NCBI GenBank assembly: GCA_019348265.1
Contig: JAHWJV010000003.1
Coordinates: 1 to 35,741, forward strand
DNA length: 35,741 nt
Reading direction: 5' to 3'
Source: Gemmatimonadota bacterium
GTDB taxonomy: Bacteria; Gemmatimonadota; Gemmatimonadetes; Longimicrobiales; Longimicrobiaceae
The notes beneath the pieces are model-generated. The model was not told the DNA's origin. It made no database searches and worked only from the letters and a program-made list of their open reading frames with translations. The position numbers and the translations under genes are program-made. This document shows positions 26,269-35,373 of this stretch, piece after piece (position 1 is the stretch's first letter; each line of letters starts with the position of its first letter).

Positions 26269-29136
26269 ATGACCGCGCTTTTCCGTAACGCCTTCGCCGG
26301 AGCGTTTACCTGTGGTATGGTCCTCCTGGCGCCGGCCATTTCGGCTGCCCAGGCCCAGCCAGACGCGGCTGCGGCGGCCGCTGACCAGGCCATCCCGACG
26401 GATCCGACGGTGCGAATCGGGACGCTCCCCAACGGGCTCCGCTACTATATCCGCAAGAACACCGAGCCGCAGAAGCGGGCGGAGCTCCGCCTGGTGGTGA
26501 ACGCCGGGAGCGTGCTGGAGGATGACGACCAGCGCGGGCTGGCGCACCTGCTGGAGCACATGGCCTTCAACGGAACGCGCAACTTCGAGAAGCAGGAGCT
26601 CGTTCGGTACCTTCAGTCGGTGGGGATGCGCTTCGGCCCGGACGTGAACGCGTACACCAGCTTCGACGAGACGGTGTACATGCTCACCCTTCCCACCGAC
26701 AGCGCCAGGGTGCTCGAGACCGGCTTCCAGATCCTGGAGGACTGGGCGCACGGCATCTCCCTCGATTCGGTGGAAGTGGAAAAGGAGCGTGGGGTGGTGA
26801 TCGAGGAGTGGCGCCTCGGTCAGGGCGCGCAGTCGCGGATGCGAGACAAGCAGTTCCCGATCCTCTTCCGCGGGTCCAGGTACGCGGAGCGCCTCCCGAT
26901 CGGCACGCTCCAGAGCCTGCAGACGGCGAAGCCCTCGGCCGTTCGCCGGTTTTACCGCGAGTGGTACCGCCCCGATCTGATGGCCGTGGTCGCGGTCGGC
27001 GACTTCGATCCGGACCGGATCGAGGCGCTCATCCGCCAGCGCTTCTCGGGCATCGCCAGGCCGGCGAACCCGCGGCCGCGCCCGGTCGTCCCCGTGCCCG
27101 ACCACGCGGAGCCGCTGGTGGCGATCGCCACCGACAAGGAGGCGTCGTATACGCTGGTCGGGCTGCTGTACAAGCAGCCGGTTCGGTCGATGAAGACGGT
27201 CGCCGAGTACCGCCGCAGCGTGGTCGAGTCGCTGTACAATGGAATGCTGAACGAGCGCTTCCTGGAGATGACCCGGCGCGCGGATGCGCCATTCGCGCAG
27301 GCGTTCTCGGGACAGGGACGCTTCGTACGGGCGAAGGAGGCCTACCAGCTTCAGGCGGTCGTTCCCGAGACGGGGGTGGAGCGTGGGCTGGACGCGCTCC
27401 TCACCGAGGCGGAGCGCGTCGCCCGGCACGGGTTCACCGCAACCGAGCTGGAGCGGCAGAAGACGAGCGTGCTCCGTTCGATGGAGCGCGCCTACGCAGA
27501 GCGGGAGAAGGCCCCGTCGAATCAACTCGTCGAGGAGTACGTCCGCCACTTCCTGGTGGAGGAGCCCACGCCCGGCATCGCCTTCGAATACGAGCTCTAC
27601 CAGCGCGTCCTGCCGGGGATCACGCTCGCGGAGGTGAACGCCCTCGCGCGCGAATGGCTGACGGACGAGAACCGTGTGGTCATGGTGAATGCGCCCGACA
27701 AGCCCGGCGTCCAGATCCCCGGCCAGCAGGCGCTTCTGGCGGTATTCGGCGCTGCCGAGGGCAAGGAAGTAACGGCGTACGTGGACGCGGTCTCGGACGT
27801 TCCTCTGCTGGTGAAGCCAGCGCGCGCCGGCTCGGTGACGAGCGTTCGGGAAGTGCCGGAGGTAGGGGTCACCGAATGGCGGCTCAGCAACGGTGTACGC
27901 GTCCTGCTCAAGCCCACCGACTTCAAAGCGGACGAGATCCTCGTAACCGCCTACAGCCTGGGGGGCGCGTCGCTGACGGAGGATCGCGACTACATCGCGG
28001 CCCTCACCGCGGGGATGATCGCTACCCAGGCGGCGAAGCTCGGCGAGCTCGACCCCACCGCCCTGCGAAAGAGCCTCGCCGGCAAGGCGGTCCAGGTGGC
28101 TCCGTCCCTCGGGGCCATCGATGAGGGGATTAACGGACGTGCCTCGCCGAAGGATCTGGAGACGCTGTTCCAGCTCGTGCACCTCTATTTCACCGCGGCG
28201 CAGCCGGACACCCCGTCTTTCGAGGGGCTGCGCAGCCAGTTGCGCAGCGTCTACCAGAACATGGCGGCGAACCCGGAGCAGGCCTTCCAGGATTCCGTGC
28301 AGGCGGTGCTCACGCAGCACCACCCGCGCGCCCGTCCGTTCACGCTCCAAACGGTCGACCAGATGGACCTGAACCGCTCCCTGACCATCTACCGCGACCG
28401 CTTTGCGGATGCAGGTGACTTCACCTTTACCTTTGTCGGCAACTTCAAGCCAGAGGAGCTGCGGCCGCTGGTCGAGAGCTATCTCGCTACGCTGCCGACG
28501 ACGGGAAGGAGGGAAACCTGGCGCGACCTGGGCATCGAGTACCCGCGTGGCGTGGTCCGGAAGGAGGTGCGGCGGGGGGTGGAGCCGAAGAGCACCAGCC
28601 GGCTCGTCTTTACCGGACCATTCGAGTTCACCCGCGAGAACCTGCACGCGATGAGCTCGCTGGCCGATATCCTTCGCGAGCGGCTGCGCAACGAACTACG
28701 CGAGGAGCTCAGCGCCACCTATGGCGTCTCGGTGAACGCCAGCGGGGTGAGGGACCCGAAGCCCCTCTACCGGCTGGACATCAGCTTCGGCTCCGCGCCG
28801 GAGCGGCGCGAGGAGCTGACCGCACGCGTGCTGGCGCAGATCGACAGCCTGCGCACGAATCCGCCGTCGGCACAGGAGGTGGCCACCGTCCAGGAGCAGC
28901 AGCGCCGTGCACTGGAGACGAACCGGCGGCAGAACGGCTACTGGCTCAACCTGATCACGTCGTACGACCGTCGCGGCTGGGACATCCGTGAAGCGCTTCA
29001 GGAGGAGGAGCGGGTCTCGGGGTTAGATCCGCGCGTGATCCACGAGGCGGCACGGCGTTATCTCGACACCCGGAACTACGTCCACGCCTGGCTGGTTCCA
29101 GAGACACAGGGCGCGCCGGCTACACCGGCTCGCTGA
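26269..29136 (+). CDS. M16-family zinc metallopeptidase (PqqL-like, two-half protein)
   Basis: The 955-aa exported protein starts at ATG 26269 with a signal peptide (GMVLLAPAISAAQA). The first M16 domain has the inverted zinc motif HLLEH at 93-97 and the third ligand candidate E173 in EKERGVVIEEW. The second half (about residue 535 on, TEWRLSNGVRVLLKPTDF) repeats the fold without HxxEH, as usual, and has LRNELREELSATYGVSVNASG for substrate binding. Family size (about 900-960 aa) fits. Such proteins degrade peptides that enter the periplasm, and PqqL is linked to iron uptake from host proteins. It precedes a small SGNH gene by 63 nt. Nothing indicates the substrate. A long antisense ORF (818 aa) is a shadow. 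Confidence 0.93.
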   Translation: MTALFRNAFAGAFTCGMVLLAPAISAAQAQPDAAAAAADQAIPTDPTVRIGTLPNGLRYYIRKNTEPQKRAELRLVVNAGSVLEDDDQRGLAHLLEHMAFNGTRNFEKQELVRYLQSVGMRFGPDVNAYTSFDETVYMLTLPTDSARVLETGFQILEDWAHGISLDSVEVEKERGVVIEEWRLGQGAQSRMRDKQFPILFRGSRYAERLPIGTLQSLQTAKPSAVRRFYREWYRPDLMAVVAVGDFDPDRIEALIRQRFSGIARPANPRPRPVVPVPDHAEPLVAIATDKEASYTLVGLLYKQPVRSMKTVAEYRRSVVESLYNGMLNERFLEMTRRADAPFAQAFSGQGRFVRAKEAYQLQAVVPETGVERGLDALLTEAERVARHGFTATELERQKTSVLRSMERAYAEREKAPSNQLVEEYVRHFLVEEPTPGIAFEYELYQRVLPGITLAEVNALAREWLTDENRVVMVNAPDKPGVQIPGQQALLAVFGAAEGKEVTAYVDAVSDVPLLVKPARAGSVTSVREVPEVGVTEWRLSNGVRVLLKPTDFKADEILVTAYSLGGASLTEDRDYIAALTAGMIATQAAKLGELDPTALRKSLAGKAVQVAPSLGAIDEGINGRASPKDLETLFQLVHLYFTAAQPDTPSFEGLRSQLRSVYQNMAANPEQAFQDSVQAVLTQHHPRARPFTLQTVDQMDLNRSLTIYRDRFADAGDFTFTFVGNFKPEELRPLVESYLATLPTTGRRETWRDLGIEYPRGVVRKEVRRGVEPKSTSRLVFTGPFEFTRENLHAMSSLADILRERLRNELREELSATYGVSVNASGVRDPKPLYRLDISFGSAPERREELTARVLAQIDSLRTNPPSAQEVATVQEQQRRALETNRRQNGYWLNLITSYDRRGWDIREALQEEERVSGLDPRVIHEAARRYLDTRNYVHAWLVPETQGAPATPAR

Positions 29137-29199: not shown

Positions 29200-29829
29200 A
29201 TGTCGCACGTAGTTCTGCTGGGGGACTCGATCTTCGACAACGCCGCCTACGTGGCGGGCGGACCGGACGTGGTGACGCAGCTCCGCGCCATCCTGCCGGC
29301 GGGCTGGCGTGCGACGCTCTGCGCGGTCGACGGCGCGGTGGTTTCCGGTGTGGAACGGCAGCTCACGCGGATGCCAGGGGACGCCACCCATTTGGTGCTG
29401 AGCATCGGCGGAAACGATTCGCTGGGCCACATCGGCATTCTCGATCGGCCGGCGCGCTCCACTGCCGACGCACTCGATCTTCTCGCCGGAATCGGAAGTA
29501 CCTTTGCCGGTCATTACGGCGAGATGCTGGAGGAGGTGCTCGCCCACGGCCTTCCCACCACCGTCTGTACCATCTACGAGGGAGCTCTTCCCGACCCGGC
29601 GCTGCATCGGCGCGCCAGGGTGGCGCTGCACGCGTTCAACGACCCGATCGTCCGCGCCGCGCTCGAGAGCGGCTCCTCGCTGATCGACCTTCGCCTCGTC
29701 TGCAACAATCCGGGCGATTACGCCAATCCCATCGAACCATCGGTGCAGGGCGGCGAGAAGATCGCGCGGGCTATCGCCGCCGCGGTCGGCGTCGGCCACG
29801 GCGGACGGCGGAGCGACGTGTTCAGCTGA
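29200..29829 (+). CDS. Cytoplasmic small SGNH/GDSL hydrolase
   Basis: The 209-aa product lacks a signal peptide. Blocks: VVLLGDSIFDNAAY with the nucleophile Ser, DGAVVSGV with a Gly-containing turn, LSIGGNDSLG with the Asn, and the last block DYANPIEPSVQGGEKIA in place of the normal DxxHP; the catalytic His is not obvious. This form is seen in other SGNH proteins of unassigned substrate. The start at ATG 29200 is set by the family start. The ribosome site is weak. It follows the M16 gene by 63 nt, and co-transcription is possible. Confidence 0.83.
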   Translation: MSHVVLLGDSIFDNAAYVAGGPDVVTQLRAILPAGWRATLCAVDGAVVSGVERQLTRMPGDATHLVLSIGGNDSLGHIGILDRPARSTADALDLLAGIGSTFAGHYGEMLEEVLAHGLPTTVCTIYEGALPDPALHRRARVALHAFNDPIVRAALESGSSLIDLRLVCNNPGDYANPIEPSVQGGEKIARAIAAAVGVGHGGRRSDVFS

Positions 29830-29908: not shown

Positions 29909-30214
29909 ATGGACCAGGACCTCGCACCCATGATCGTGATGGTCACCGCCATTCTGACGACTGGCGGTGTGCTGATCCTGCGCCCGGTCGCCAAGCATCT
30001 CGCCGAGTACCTCCGGAGCCTCACGGAGCAGAGCCGCCTCGGCGCGGGCGGCGCCGTCGCCGAGAACGCGCAGCTCCGCGAGCTGCTTTCCACCGTTGAG
30101 AGCCGGCTCGCGCTGCTGGAGGAGCGGCAGAACTTTACCGAGAACCTGCTGAGCGCGCGTCGCGAGCCGCCTCCGCTGGCTCCGGAGCGGAAGCGGCTCC
30201 CGGTCGAGATTTGA
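29909..30214 (+). CDS. Membrane-anchored coiled-coil small protein (101 aa)
   Basis: The start at ATG 29909 (CATATG) is followed by a single N-terminal hydrophobic segment (MIVMVTAILTTGGVLILRPVAKHLAEYL), then a polar coiled coil (AENAQLRELLSTVESRLALLEERQNFTENLL), then a Pro/Arg tail. Such small proteins, one TM plus coiled coil, recur in related genomes but have no assigned role. Two perfect 12-nt palindromes lie upstream (29844-29855 and 29870-29881). I do not recognise a specific family. Confidence 0.72.
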   Translation: MDQDLAPMIVMVTAILTTGGVLILRPVAKHLAEYLRSLTEQSRLGAGGAVAENAQLRELLSTVESRLALLEERQNFTENLLSARREPPPLAPERKRLPVEI

Positions 30215-30370: not shown

Positions 30371-31573
30371 TCAGGGGGTTCGGATCGCCGGGAGTCGGAT
30401 GATGAAGGAGGAGCCGACGCCCACCCGGCTCTCGAGCTCGAGCGCACCGCCCATCTGTTGAACCAGGCCGTGCGAGATGGCGAGCCCGAGGCCGACCCCC
30501 GGCACACCGGCCGTGCCGGCGCTGCGGTAAAATGGCTCGAAGATGGCCGCCTGCTCCGCTTCGGGAATCCCCGGGCCGCTGTCGGTGACCCGGATCTCGC
30601 CCCAGGCGGCGCCGTCGACGAGCCGCTCGGAGGTGGTGACGGAGATGGCGCCGTCCTGCGGCGTGAACTTCACCGCGTTGCCGATCAGGTTTACGAGTAC
30701 CTGGCGGATGCGTGCGGCGTCGCCCGAAGCTATCACGTCCGCCTGCTTGCCGAGGTGGAGCGTCTGCAGCTTGGCGTCGGAAGCGGGGATCAGCATGTGA
30801 ACGGCCTCACGCGCGACCTCGGCGAGCCGAACCGGCTCGGCGGTGATCCTCACCACGCCTGCGCTGAGGCGAGCCATGTCCATCACGTTGTCGAGCAGGG
30901 AAAGCAGGTGCCTGCCGCTCATGCGGACACGCCCGATCGTCTCGCGTTGTCGATCGGTGATCGGGCCCTGCATCTCCTCCTCGAGAATCGCGCAGTACCC
31001 GTCGATCGCACCCAGCGGGGTGCGGATGTCGTGCGCGAGAGTGGCGAGGGCGCGGTCTTTGGCGCTGGTAGCGCCTTCGCTGGCCCGCAACCGGTCCTCC
31101 AGCTCGATCCGCACCTCGCCCCCGAGCCGGGCGTTCTCCACCGCCACCGCCGCCTGATCCGCGAGAGCGGACAGGAGCGATTCGTCGTCGTCCGTGCACC
31201 CCTGCCGCAGGGCCACGGCCAGCAGGCCCGTGACCACGCCACCGACCACGAGCGGAACCGCGATGAAGTAGTCGTCGGGAACGGCGAGCAGCCCCTGGAG
31301 CCTGCCGATCACCTCGTCCGTCACGGGGGCGCGGAACCGGGCGATCAGCTCCTCGTCGATGCCATGCGCCGCGCGCACGTGGAGGAGCCCCTCCGCGTCG
31401 GCGAGCATGAGCACGGCGGCCGACGCATCGAGGAGCTCGGCGCCGCGCTCGACCGTGAGCCGAGTCACCTGGTCCATCGACGTGGTGTACGTCAGCGCGC
31501 GGCTGATCTCCGTCAGCCTGCGGAGCTGTGCGAAGCCCGGGTCGACGGTCGCGAAAGTGGAGCCTTCGTTCAT
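30371..31573 (-). CDS. GAF-domain sensor histidine kinase (last gene of KaiC operon)
   Basis: The 400-aa soluble kinase begins at ATG 31573, overlapping the KaiC stop as ATGA. Residues 15-150 are a GAF domain (LTEISRALTYTTSMDQVTRLTVERGAELLDA, then YFIAVPLVVGGVVTGLLAVALR). HisKA has the phospho-His H181 in LATLAHDIRTPLGAIDGY. HATPase_c shows N-box NLIGNAVKFTP, G1 DSGPGIP and G2 GVGLGLAIS. No membrane segment is seen, so the kinase senses a cytoplasmic ligand through GAF. Its usual partner would be a receiver with an Asp, but the receiver in the operon carries Glu. See the operon finding. Confidence 0.93.
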   Translation of the reverse strand: MNEGSTFATVDPGFAQLRRLTEISRALTYTTSMDQVTRLTVERGAELLDASAAVLMLADAEGLLHVRAAHGIDEELIARFRAPVTDEVIGRLQGLLAVPDDYFIAVPLVVGGVVTGLLAVALRQGCTDDDESLLSALADQAAVAVENARLGGEVRIELEDRLRASEGATSAKDRALATLAHDIRTPLGAIDGYCAILEEEMQGPITDRQRETIGRVRMSGRHLLSLLDNVMDMARLSAGVVRITAEPVRLAEVAREAVHMLIPASDAKLQTLHLGKQADVIASGDAARIRQVLVNLIGNAVKFTPQDGAISVTTSERLVDGAAWGEIRVTDSGPGIPEAEQAAIFEPFYRSAGTAGVPGVGLGLAISHGLVQQMGGALELESRVGVGSSFIIRLPAIRTP

Positions 31574-32952
31574 TCCAGGATGGAAACGCCAGCCGCGCTG
31601 ATGGCGAACTCGCGGACGCGGCTGTCATGTGCACTGCCGCGCGTTTTGAGCACGCGCAGCTTACGGCGGGTGCGCTCCTCCCCGTCCACCGTGAGCAGCA
31701 CGACGTTGTCGGACAGGTAGCTCATCGCGTTCTGCATCCCGTGCCCCGCGATCGTGTTGCCGGTCGTCTCGAAGTTCAGAACGCTGGTGATGGTGCTCAC
31801 CGCGAAGTGCTGCACCAGCGCGTAAAGGTAGTCGTGCAGGCGTTGCGGATCCGTGGCCGCGCTCGCCAGGTCGCCCAACGCGTCTATGACCAGCCGTCGG
31901 ACGCCGCGCTGCTGAATGCGCCGGAACATGTCGACGATGATGCTGTCGATCTGCAGCTCGACGGGGGACGCGTACACCAGATCCAGGCCGTGCGCCTGGG
32001 CCTGCTCCGGGTCCCCGCCCAGCGCCCGGATGGTCCGAATCAGCTGAGTCGGGTTTTCCTGGAAGTTCATGTACAGCGTGGGCTCCCCACAACGCGCTCC
32101 CTCCAGCGCGAACTGCAGCCCGATCGTCGTCTTCCCCGCACCGGAGGGGCCCGCCAGCAGCGTCGTCGTTCCGCGCCAGAGCCCTCCGTCCAGCATCTCG
32201 TCCAATCCCTGGATTCCGGTGGAAATCCGCTCCGTCGCGGGCTCGTAGCCCTCCGGCATCCGCGGGCTGACCAGTCTCGGGTAGACGTCCAGGCCCGAGC
32301 TGGTGATGCGGAAGGCGTGCGCTCCCTCCAGGTAGCGGCTCCCGCGCAGCTTGTACACGCGGAAGTAGCGCTCGTCGCGGTTGCCGAGGCGTCGGCGTGA
32401 AAGCTCGACGATTCCGTCGGCGACCGCGAACTCCGGGTAGAGGAGGATGTCCTCCTCCGTGTATTCCCCCAGCAGAAATGCGGTGGTTCCGTATGCCGTG
32501 AGCAGTGCCGTCATCTCGTAGACCATGCGGCGCCGCTCGGCAGCGGATGGGGCCAGGTCGTGGACCGCCTTGAACGAATCGATGACGATGACCTTGGGAG
32601 AGAGCGTCTTGATGGCAGCGTGGAGCAGCGGGATCAGCGCGCCGGCTCCCTCCTTCGCCAGCTGCGGCCCCACATCCTCGTAGATCACCTGAGTACCGAG
32701 CTTCGTTTCGTCGAAGAAGCCGAACCCCTGCAGGTAGCGAACGACCTTCTCCAGCGGCTCCGACAGCGTGGTGAAGTACAGGATCGGCCGGTCGTCACTG
32801 GCGTTGTGGAAGATCAGCTGCTCGGCGAAGATCGTCTTCCCCGAGCCAGGATGCCCCATGATGATGTTGATGGAGTTCGACGGGAACCCACCGCCCAGGA
32901 TGTGGTCGGCTTCGGGGTTGCCCGCGCTCATGCGCTCGGTGTTGTCGTCCAC
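31570..32952 (-). CDS. KaiC-like double-domain RecA/RAD55 ATPase
   Basis: The 460-aa product is read from GTG 32952, which has AGGAGAGAG just upstream; ATG 32931 and GTG 33000 are in-frame alternatives. The 611-aa track version covers the receiver gene and is rejected. Domain one: ILGGGFPSNSINIIMGHPGSGKTIFAEQL (Walker A) and KVIVIDSFKAV (Walker B). Domain two: DEMLDGGLWRGTTTLLAGPSGAGKTTIGLQFALEG and RRLVIDALGDLA. The positions that hold paired catalytic Glu in cyanobacterial KaiC read FTTLSEP and NFQENP here. KaiC-like proteins outside cyanobacteria act as ATPase switches in signalling. There is no KaiA or KaiB. It sits between a receiver and a kinase, with the stop of the former and the start of the latter overlapping or tightly spaced. 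Confidence 0.9.
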   Translation of the reverse strand: MDDNTERMSAGNPEADHILGGGFPSNSINIIMGHPGSGKTIFAEQLIFHNASDDRPILYFTTLSEPLEKVVRYLQGFGFFDETKLGTQVIYEDVGPQLAKEGAGALIPLLHAAIKTLSPKVIVIDSFKAVHDLAPSAAERRRMVYEMTALLTAYGTTAFLLGEYTEEDILLYPEFAVADGIVELSRRRLGNRDERYFRVYKLRGSRYLEGAHAFRITSSGLDVYPRLVSPRMPEGYEPATERISTGIQGLDEMLDGGLWRGTTTLLAGPSGAGKTTIGLQFALEGARCGEPTLYMNFQENPTQLIRTIRALGGDPEQAQAHGLDLVYASPVELQIDSIIVDMFRRIQQRGVRRLVIDALGDLASAATDPQRLHDYLYALVQHFAVSTITSVLNFETTGNTIAGHGMQNAMSYLSDNVVLLTVDGEERTRRKLRVLKTRGSAHDSRVREFAISAAGVSILE

Positions 32953-32984
32953 CTCTCTCCTGGAGCTGACGCGGCGGTCCGGAA

Positions 32985-33401
32985 TTATTTCGACGCCCAC
33001 TGTTCCTCCAATGCTCCAATGGGGTGCGCCGCGATCAGCTGTTGGACCGCCGACAGAAAGACCGACTCGACCAGCGGCTTGCGCAGGAACAACTTCGCTC
33101 CGGCCTCCGACGCGCGTGCACCGGCGGCGAGAATGCTGAAGACTAGAACCGGGATGTCCCGCGTGGCGGGGTTCTCCTGCAAGCGGCGGCTCAGCGCGAG
33201 ACCGTCGATCTTCGGAATCAGAATCTCCGTCACGACCAGCAGCGGCCGAATGGCGAGCGCGCGCTCGAGTGCGGCTTCCCCGTCGTCGACGAACTCGACG
33301 GTGAAGCCGGCCTGGTTCAGAAAGTAGCTCTGCAGATCGCGGACGCTCTGACTGCGCTCCGCGATCAGGATTACACGTGAATCTGGATGCTGATCCTGCA
33401 T
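32985..33401 (-). CDS. Atypical response-regulator receiver domain with Asp to Glu change
   Basis: The 138-aa single-domain protein starts at ATG 33401 with GAGGAGG upstream. It has receiver beta-strand patterns VILIAERSQSVRDLQSYFLNQAG, LLVVTEILIPKIDGLALSRRL, IPVLVFSILA and LFLRKPL. The position that should be the phospho-acceptor Asp is E59 (VVTEILIP), and the acidic pocket is reduced to E15. S89 and K108 are kept. Glu at this place often mimics the phosphorylated form, so it may be constitutively on or phosphorylation-independent. It is the first gene of a three-gene operon (receiver, KaiC, kinase) and lies 32 nt before the chosen KaiC start. Confidence 0.85.
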   Translation of the reverse strand: MQDQHPDSRVILIAERSQSVRDLQSYFLNQAGFTVEFVDDGEAALERALAIRPLLVVTEILIPKIDGLALSRRLQENPATRDIPVLVFSILAAGARASEAGAKLFLRKPLVESVFLSAVQQLIAAHPIGALEEQWASK

Positions 33402-33596
33402 CCAACCTCCTCAGACGGAGAGTTGCCCGACCAGCGTGAGACAGGGAGGGGACGGACCGGTGCGGATAGAGCCGCCGAGCATCGGATGCAACATGCGCGC
33501 CCTGCTCCGGCCCGTGGGGATTGTCCCGCGCTCGACACTATCGCAGTTTGTGCGCGGGTCTTGGAGCTTGTACCCCACTCTTCCACCTTCGCTTCA

Positions 33597-34289
33597 ATGT
33601 CCACCTCCACGCGCGTCTTCCTGGTCCGCCACGGCGCCACGATCCTCACGGCGGAGGACCGCTTCGCCGGCTCGAGCGACGTTCCGCTGGCCGACTATGG
33701 TCGAGATCAGGCGCAGCGGCTGGCGCTACGTCTGGCCGGGGAGGCCGTCGCGGCGGTGTATGCCTCGCCGTTAGGGCGAGCGGTGGAAACGGCGCAGATC
33801 CTCGCCCGCCCGCACCGACTCGACGTGAGGGAGCGCTCCGAGTTGCGCGAGATCTCGCACGGCCGCTGGGAGCAGATGACGCGGCAGGAGGTGGAGGCGG
33901 AGTACCCGGAGGAGGTCGCCGCCTGGGACGACGATCCCTTCACCTTCGCGCCCGCCGGCGGCGAGTCCGGCCTCGCCGTAACCTCTCGCGCCCTGCCGGC
34001 GTTGATCGACATCGTGCGGGCGCATCCGGGCGAGAACGTGATCGTGGTCTCCCACAAGGCGACGATCCGGCTGCTCCTGAGCCTGCTGCTCGGCTTCGAT
34101 CCCCGACGCTATCGCGATAACCTTGACCAGAGCCCCGCCGCGTTGAACATCGTCGACTTCCGCAATCCCACGCGTGCGCGACTCACCCTGTTCAACGACA
34201 CCTCGCACTACGCGGAGGCGGGGCTCGCCATACCGGCCGTCCCTGGCGCGCGCCTCTCGAAGTGGTGGGATGACCTGCCTAGCGAGTAG
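33597..34289 (+). CDS. Histidine phosphatase family protein (phosphoglycerate mutase-like)
   Basis: The 230-aa product is read from ATG 33597. The track start at 33387 has no coding support and overlaps the divergent receiver start. RHG motif with catalytic His is VFLVRHGATILTAEDRFAGSSD, and the second His is in VIVVSHKATIRLLLSLLL. Between them, ASPLGRAVETAQILA and ELREISHGRWEQMTRQEVEAEYPEEVAAW are typical of cofactor-independent-type phosphatases such as GpmB or CobC. The substrate is a phosphorylated metabolite, not assignable. No leader ribosome site is visible. It is divergent from the receiver operon, with a 195-nt gap. Confidence 0.88.
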   Translation: MSTSTRVFLVRHGATILTAEDRFAGSSDVPLADYGRDQAQRLALRLAGEAVAAVYASPLGRAVETAQILARPHRLDVRERSELREISHGRWEQMTRQEVEAEYPEEVAAWDDDPFTFAPAGGESGLAVTSRALPALIDIVRAHPGENVIVVSHKATIRLLLSLLLGFDPRRYRDNLDQSPAALNIVDFRNPTRARLTLFNDTSHYAEAGLAIPAVPGARLSKWWDDLPSE

Positions 34290-34732: not shown

Positions 34733-35227
34733 TCAGGCCATGAGCTTCGCGAGCGTTCGCGGGGCAACCTGCTCCAGGAAGCTGGCCATGGCTTCCTCTT
34801 CGGCCAGGCTCTCCTTCAGGATGCTGGCGCACTCCTTGTGCCCCAGAACGTTCGCCATAGCGATCGCGGTGCGGTACGCGGCGATCTCGTAATGCTCGAC
34901 CCGCAGGCCGGAACCGAGGTCGAACGCCTCGAGTAGCTGCTTCGAGGGCTTTTCCTCGGACTTGAAGGAGTCGTGCTCCTCCTTCAGCCCGATCGCCGCC
35001 TCGCACTTCTCAGCTTTGGCCTTCTCGCCGATCGAGGCGAAGGCCTTCTCGAGCCGCTCGATCTGCACGGCCGTCTCCTCGACATGCTTCTCGAGGCGCG
35101 CCTTCACCTCCGGGTCGTTCGTCTCCCGGATCATCGTCTTCGTGGCCGTGGTGAAGCGCTTCTCGGCATAGAGAAGGTCAGCCAACTCGTGCTTCAGCAG
35201 GTCCTTGGGCTCGGTCATTTCCGCCAT
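34733..35227 (-). CDS. DUF892 ferritin-like protein (YciE/YciF family)
   Basis: The 164-aa product starts at ATG 35227 with GGAGATGG upstream; the longer track start is not supported. Sequence shows four-helix features: KDLLKHELADLLYAEKRFTTATKTMIRETNDPEVKARLEKHVEETAVQIERLEKAFASIG, then LGSGLRVEHYEIAAYRTAIAMANVLGHKECASILKESLAEEEAMASFLEQVAP. Glu and His residues spaced along helices (ELADLLYAE, EKHVEET, EHYEIAAY, EEEAM) match metal-binding positions of the family. YciF-like proteins are induced by general and osmotic stress; their reaction is not proven. It is convergent with the STAS remnant. Confidence 0.9.
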   Translation of the reverse strand: MAEMTEPKDLLKHELADLLYAEKRFTTATKTMIRETNDPEVKARLEKHVEETAVQIERLEKAFASIGEKAKAEKCEAAIGLKEEHDSFKSEEKPSKQLLEAFDLGSGLRVEHYEIAAYRTAIAMANVLGHKECASILKESLAEEEAMASFLEQVAPRTLAKLMA

Positions 35228-35373
35228 GATACCATCTCCGGGTCGGGTAGTAAGAAACTCGTGGGGTCGGGCTCCGTGCAAAGACCTTGCCCGCGACGGC
35301 TCATTTTCAGCCGCCCGGGAAGCGATTACATTCGGCTCGCGCGCTCGTTCCCTTCCCCGCTCGATAGGGCCTG

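Follow-up and report, generated by a model that had tools for sequence, protein, structure and literature searches.

A 2011 survey described operons in which kaiC is paired with a histidine kinase gene (HK) without kaiA or kaiB, noted kaiC genes in the vicinity of genes for receivers and proposed an hourglass for Ramlibacter (PMC3164672). In archaea, KaiC-like proteins are regarded as hubs of signal transduction (Makarova 2017, cited in PMC5847659); KaiC-REC fusions are known in Methanosarcinaceae, and six archaeal genera have a receiver joined to KaiC in one protein. Pseudo-receivers of KaiA and CikA act as partners of the KaiC system in cyanobacterial clocks (PMC12632262), and Synechocystis KaiA3 has a receiver-like N-terminus in which the Asp is mostly kept (PMC11372060).

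We analysed a stretch of 35,741 nt from a Gemmatimonadota bacterium (contig JAHWJV010000003.1), referred to as the window, which encodes a receiver (REC), a KaiC-like protein and a soluble GAF histidine kinase (GAF-HK). The arrangement resembles Rta_04330/Rta_04340 of Ramlibacter, where KaiC is followed by a soluble HK without KaiA or KaiB (PMC3164672), but here a receiver precedes KaiC, the HK carries a GAF instead of an RtaNt domain and KaiC lacks the catalytic E318. A sequence-only reading of the window had suggested a self-contained ATP-driven switch or timer; the idea of an hourglass timer in a KaiC-kinase operon without KaiA and KaiB was already published in that work. The tie of a KaiC-family ATPase to receiver and kinase genes is shared with the archaeal hubs; in contrast to these, the genes are separate, the KaiC has two domains, about ten bacterial phyla are involved and the receiver lacks its Asp. 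As in KaiA, CikA and KaiA3 a receiver-like domain would act on the KaiC system, and the Asp is also missing in KaiA and CikA (PMC12632262, PMC11372060); however, REC has no KaiA-type C-terminal domain, KaiB is not needed and the KaiC of the window has no KaiA-binding tail. Glu at the phospho-acceptor position is known from plant PRRs and Ascomycota Rim15 (PMC12632262), whereas REC is a stand-alone bacterial protein encoded with KaiC. No description of the receiver-linked KaiC clade or of MerR-REC-KaiC operons was found in the open-licence papers searched.

Operon structure and conservation in Gemmatimonadota

The three genes are located on the minus strand from 33401 to 30371 and overlap at their ends. 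REC (32985..33401, minus strand; Pfam Response_reg, 1.2e-14), a stand-alone pseudo-receiver of 138 aa, is preceded by a Shine-Dalgarno-like GGAGG at 33406..33410 (minus strand). The KaiC-like double-domain ATPase (31570..33000, minus strand; 476 aa; PF06745, 2.1e-69) starts with a GTG at 33000, consistent with the N-termini of its orthologues; a second Shine-Dalgarno-like GGAGG is found 5' of this codon at 33005..33009 (minus strand), within the REC gene, with which kaiC overlaps by 16 nt. The KaiC stop and the start of GAF-HK (30371..31573, minus strand; 400 aa; GAF, HisKA and HATPase_c matches) share an ATGA overlap. The upstream neighbour is divergent (a histidine phosphatase, likely start 33597, plus strand) and the downstream neighbour convergent (29909-30214, plus strand), so gene orientation marks the three genes as a complete unit. 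The three-gene signalling operon and its coordinates were thereby confirmed, and the Pfam domains agree with the sequence-only reading, which had recognized three tightly spaced genes on one strand for a receiver, a two-domain KaiC and a GAF histidine kinase. Scanning of the window for sigma-70 promoters and terminators led to no match above chance, which says little in this phylum, and a search for Rfam families and tRNAs in the window was negative. Further genes of the window encode an M16-like protease (26269-29136, plus strand; judged by eye), a GDSL hydrolase (29200-29829, plus strand), the histidine phosphatase (33597-34289, plus strand) and a DUF892 protein (34733-35281, minus strand), for none of which an operon link was seen.

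The earlier reading had suggested searching for the same gene order in Gemmatimonadota and their relatives, and it was found to be conserved well beyond the phylum. Within Gemmatimonadota, REC-KaiC-GAF-HK was detected in every locus with sufficient contig reach, in four families and with one exception (L167), and the order recurs with KaiCs 55-90% identical. None of five flanking genes of the window had a match in the orthologous loci, indicating that the operon and not the region is conserved; since the order recurs without a match to the tested flanking genes, the operon is not a chance cluster. The exception L167 (G281:C33:151000-158500) is a second copy of the module that appears to be decaying: its receiver is intact and of the Glu type, but a frameshift splits its KaiC and the kinase is missing. 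Across samples of about 395 genomes each, the strong KaiC matches (all >570 bits, the next at 455) form a group apart from weaker paralogues and fall in receiver-carrying genomes. The genome of the window itself encodes three more KaiC paralogues with two domains, located close to genes for histidine kinases (L040, L041 and L042; contigs C23, C564 and C6), with no receiver immediately upstream within the stretch seen. In two Gemmatimonadota a second, convergent KaiC-HK pair abuts the REC-KaiC-HK operon (L053:8652-11134 and L056:6460-9184), so that two KaiC systems lie tail to tail.

Active-site residues of REC and KaiC

Alignment of REC with CheY placed Glu59 (GAG, 33227-33225) at the D57 phospho-acceptor site and Arg16 at that of D13, so that Glu-Arg stands in place of the acidic D12 D13 pair, while the T87 and K109 sites are Ser89 and Lys108. 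The AlphaFold model (pLDDT 91.2) had RR468 as best Foldseek match (1.2 Å). REC therefore has a receiver fold without key catalytic residues, as in a pseudo-receiver (PsR), and with Glu59 and the Glu-Arg pair it is not a canonical response regulator, which would carry a phospho-acceptor Asp and an acidic pair. From its residues, REC is predicted to be unable to use the normal Asp phosphate chemistry. Its proposed blindness to phosphorylation is supported by the missing Asp, and the phosphosite is Glu in all aligned KaiC-paired receivers of Gemmatimonadota and in most of those across the linked clade, with an Asp as second acidic residue in none of the readable sequences. As several relatives in the clade (Actinomycetota, Obscuribacterales) keep the phosphosite Asp, phosphorylation is possible in parts of it. 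The Arg of REC at the D13 site might be likened to CheY D13K/Y106W, which is reportedly a constitutively active form. Glu at the phospho-acceptor position can partly mimic phosphorylation in many regulators (PMC12632262). Three other explanations were rejected: a decaying or inert gene by the conservation of the Glu, Ser and Lys sites and of the gene pair across phyla, a KaiA orthologue by a fold search that ranked ordinary receivers first and by the lack of a KaiA Pfam match, and a sequencing error at the Asp codon by the recurrence of this Glu in dozens of genomes.

GAF-HK has intact N, G1 and G2 boxes and His181 (codon 31033-31031) and is thus a histidine kinase, although not of the SasA type, as its N-terminus is a GAF domain instead of a KaiB-like domain and no KaiB family was matched. 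Co-encoded with a receiver, it could be thought to form an ordinary two-component pair in which the kinase phosphorylates REC and KaiC is a bystander, but this is extremely improbable with a receiver that has no acceptor Asp and an Arg in the Mg pocket, and in a clade whose Asp-type receivers are without adjacent kinase.

The KaiC of the window belongs to the KaiC superfamily (PF06745), with two ATPase domains that each preserve Walker A and the trans K/R residues of the inter-subunit fingers, and its model (AlphaFold pLDDT 91.7) matched KaiC 7s65 in Foldseek. It remained far below the NCBIfam equivalog cut-offs for circadian KaiC (227.9 bits vs 408 for NF006799 and 135.6 vs 546 for TIGR02655). 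The catalytic Glu pairs EE of circadian KaiC are replaced by S-E in CI and Q-E in CII, with Q314 at the catalytic E318 site (E318Q) and S80 at the E77 site, the latter being assigned less certainly from a gapped alignment. S427-Y428 is found at the S431-T432 phosphosite dyad, the A-loop is missing, and the protein stops where the KaiA-binding C-terminal tail would start. Comparison with other KaiCs revealed E318Q in 53/58 receiver-linked proteins but only in 6/25 unlinked ones, and replacement of T432 in 58/58 linked proteins, none with a Thr there, whereas the Mg-binding Glu (E319) and the K/R fingers are conserved. As E318 activates T432/S431 and E318A KaiC shows no phosphoryl transfer (PMC2777353), the KaiC of the operon looks unable to phosphorylate itself.

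These residues bear on two further explanations. An hourglass timer, with a kinase that reads out a cycle of KaiC phosphorylation as proposed earlier for Ramlibacter KaiC-HK pairs (PMC3164672), would be in line with the pairing of KaiC and HK in genomes that lack KaiA and mostly also KaiB, and with the Ser at the S431 position in 54/58 linked KaiCs; it is nevertheless very unlikely given E318Q, the loss of T432 and the missing A-loop and tail, and KaiCs without both phosphosites probably cannot sustain a cycle according to the survey in PMC3164672. A signalling hub with a fully active KaiC ATPase that remodels receiver or kinase complexes is quite unlikely as well, the catalytic positions E77 and E318 being changed. 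Near each active site, however, a further Glu is conserved (E179, which corresponds to E183 of S. elongatus, in 57/58 linked KaiCs, and E411, a Thr in S. elongatus KaiC, in 53/58), and together with the conserved fingers this means that ATP hydrolysis is possibly retained via another Glu.

KaiA was not detected in any of the 15 operon-bearing genomes searched (that of the window and 14 related ones), while the S. elongatus control was found. KaiB gave no match in the genome of the window (a weak negative, as it is 72% complete) and in 9/14 relatives, including genomes 98-100% complete, whereas four relatives had clear matches above the cut-off and one a sub-threshold match. The claim of a set without KaiA and KaiB thus fits 15/15 genomes for KaiA and 10/15 for KaiB and fails for KaiB in the four with clear matches. 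These absences argue against a KaiABC-type oscillator. A self-contained timer, as put forward in the sequence-only reading, is not supported, given E318Q and the lack of T432, A-loop and KaiA tail; with these features and the absences it is unlikely that KaiC runs a clock by phosphorylation or is itself the target of a phosphate transfer. The suggested targeting of KaiC by the kinase is likewise not supported, as the kinase-fused receivers of relatives keep the canonical Asp and offer the kinase an ordinary target.

The receiver-linked KaiC clade

A scan of a genome collection led to 79 KaiC loci, a census that is biased as the scan patterns were derived from this KaiC group. REC was found directly upstream in 58/58 full-length KaiCs of one clade from about ten phyla (support 99/93; on one side of a single branch in 100% of 200 bootstrap trees), and one branch (99/93) sets them apart from the 19 other KaiCs of the careful tree, which have no REC directly upstream. 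Most loci originate from metagenome bins, with Ramlibacter rhizophilus, four Kribbella, Pseudonocardia acidicola and Halopolyspora algeriensis as isolates. The divergence of REC correlated with that of KaiC (r 0.78, 54 pairs; permuted maximum 0.16), as did that of HK (r 0.89, 21 pairs); correlated divergence would, however, also arise if the genes were merely inherited together and their products did not touch. The clade is split into one part with stand-alone receivers, mostly of the Glu type, and another of Actinomycetota and one Chloroflexota member with MerR-REC fusions. The former contains a nested, mostly Obscuribacterales group with Asp, pointing either to a reversion to Asp or to losses that occurred independently. 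Viral contigs contained no relative of REC, and on plasmids just two distant KaiCs (34%) were found. In the cyanobacteria Moorena and Acaryochloris and in planctomycetes, tandem KaiC genes consist of a copy with the same QENP motif followed by a FEE-type, long-tailed copy (L104, L106, L107, L108, L109 and L118), and those with QENP branch as sister to the receiver-linked clade.

Judged from gene order and phylogeny, the true conserved core is the REC-KaiC pair, inherited as one unit. The fixed set of three genes claimed before thus stands for Gemmatimonadota, where the order is kept, but has to be narrowed to two genes elsewhere, as the kinase is missing from many REC-KaiC loci of other phyla and is therefore optional. 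The pair occurs in culturable Ramlibacter rhizophilus, Kribbella and Pseudonocardia acidicola and is accessible to experiments, and its recognition helps to distinguish KaiCs that are probably no timekeepers from branches that might be.

Proposed function and exchangeable partners

As REC-KaiC is the invariant element, the likeliest function lies between these two proteins, and with a receiver without Asp and a CII domain without catalytic Glu the signal is probably passed by binding that depends on the nucleotide state of KaiC. We therefore favour a switch that probably senses energy and bypasses phosphorylation over a clock; that the operon encodes a switch for energy state or a ligand, based on a KaiC-receiver pair that works independently of phosphorylation, has about an even chance of being correct. 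KaiC would form a hexamer loaded with ATP whose CII turns over slowly or not at all, its nucleotide state would decide whether the receiver is held or released, and the Glu and Arg substitutions would push the receiver toward an active-like shape. Where a GAF kinase is co-encoded, as in Gemmatimonadota, several Myxococcota and some Proteobacteria, it may then be regulated by the KaiC-receiver assembly; the kinase would sense a cytosolic ligand by its GAF domain and phosphorylate another, ordinary Asp receiver of the cell. Such a target is available, as hybrid kinases in third position (L068, L084 and L169) carry a C-terminal receiver with canonical Asp, so that in some relatives the target may be the receiver fused to the kinase itself.

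With a complete downstream context, HK follows KaiC in 21/33 Glu-type but 0/18 Asp-type loci, as detected with a custom-built profile and counted irrespective of phylogeny. This restriction to Glu-type receivers would also be expected if the Asp-less REC docked on the DHp of the histidine kinase and kept it off, with KaiC merely tuning. RR468, whose fold REC shares, has been solved in complexes with a histidine kinase, and the PsR of CikA inhibits autophosphorylation within CikA (PMC12632262). We nevertheless consider the kinase an unlikely target of the receiver, since many REC-KaiC pairs have no adjacent kinase, yet every receiver with E<=1e-30 in the class survey adjoins a KaiC.

For a switch at the KaiC-receiver pair, a kinase or a MerR domain would be an exchangeable output or input. 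In the part of the clade formed by Actinomycetota and one Chloroflexota locus, Pfam showed MerR-REC fusions for 12 proteins (10 + 2), and the other members were assigned from protein length and placement in the tree. The MerR DNA-binding domain of the receiver could lead to direct transcription control as output in Actinomycetota. A tentative generalization, somewhat less than evenly probable, would be that the KaiCs of this widespread clade, dead as kinases, read the ATP state and act without His-Asp phosphotransfer on a receiver blind to phosphorylation, in Actinomycetota by directly controlling a MerR transcription factor; if true, this would represent a signalling route from KaiC to a receiver that circumvents such transfer. 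Other KaiC neighbours in the clade include GAF-SpoIIE and GAF-HD proteins, and in Kribbella MerR-REC-KaiC is followed by AAA-LuxR type regulators (L099, L105, L110 and L126; Pfam-checked in L099 and L105).
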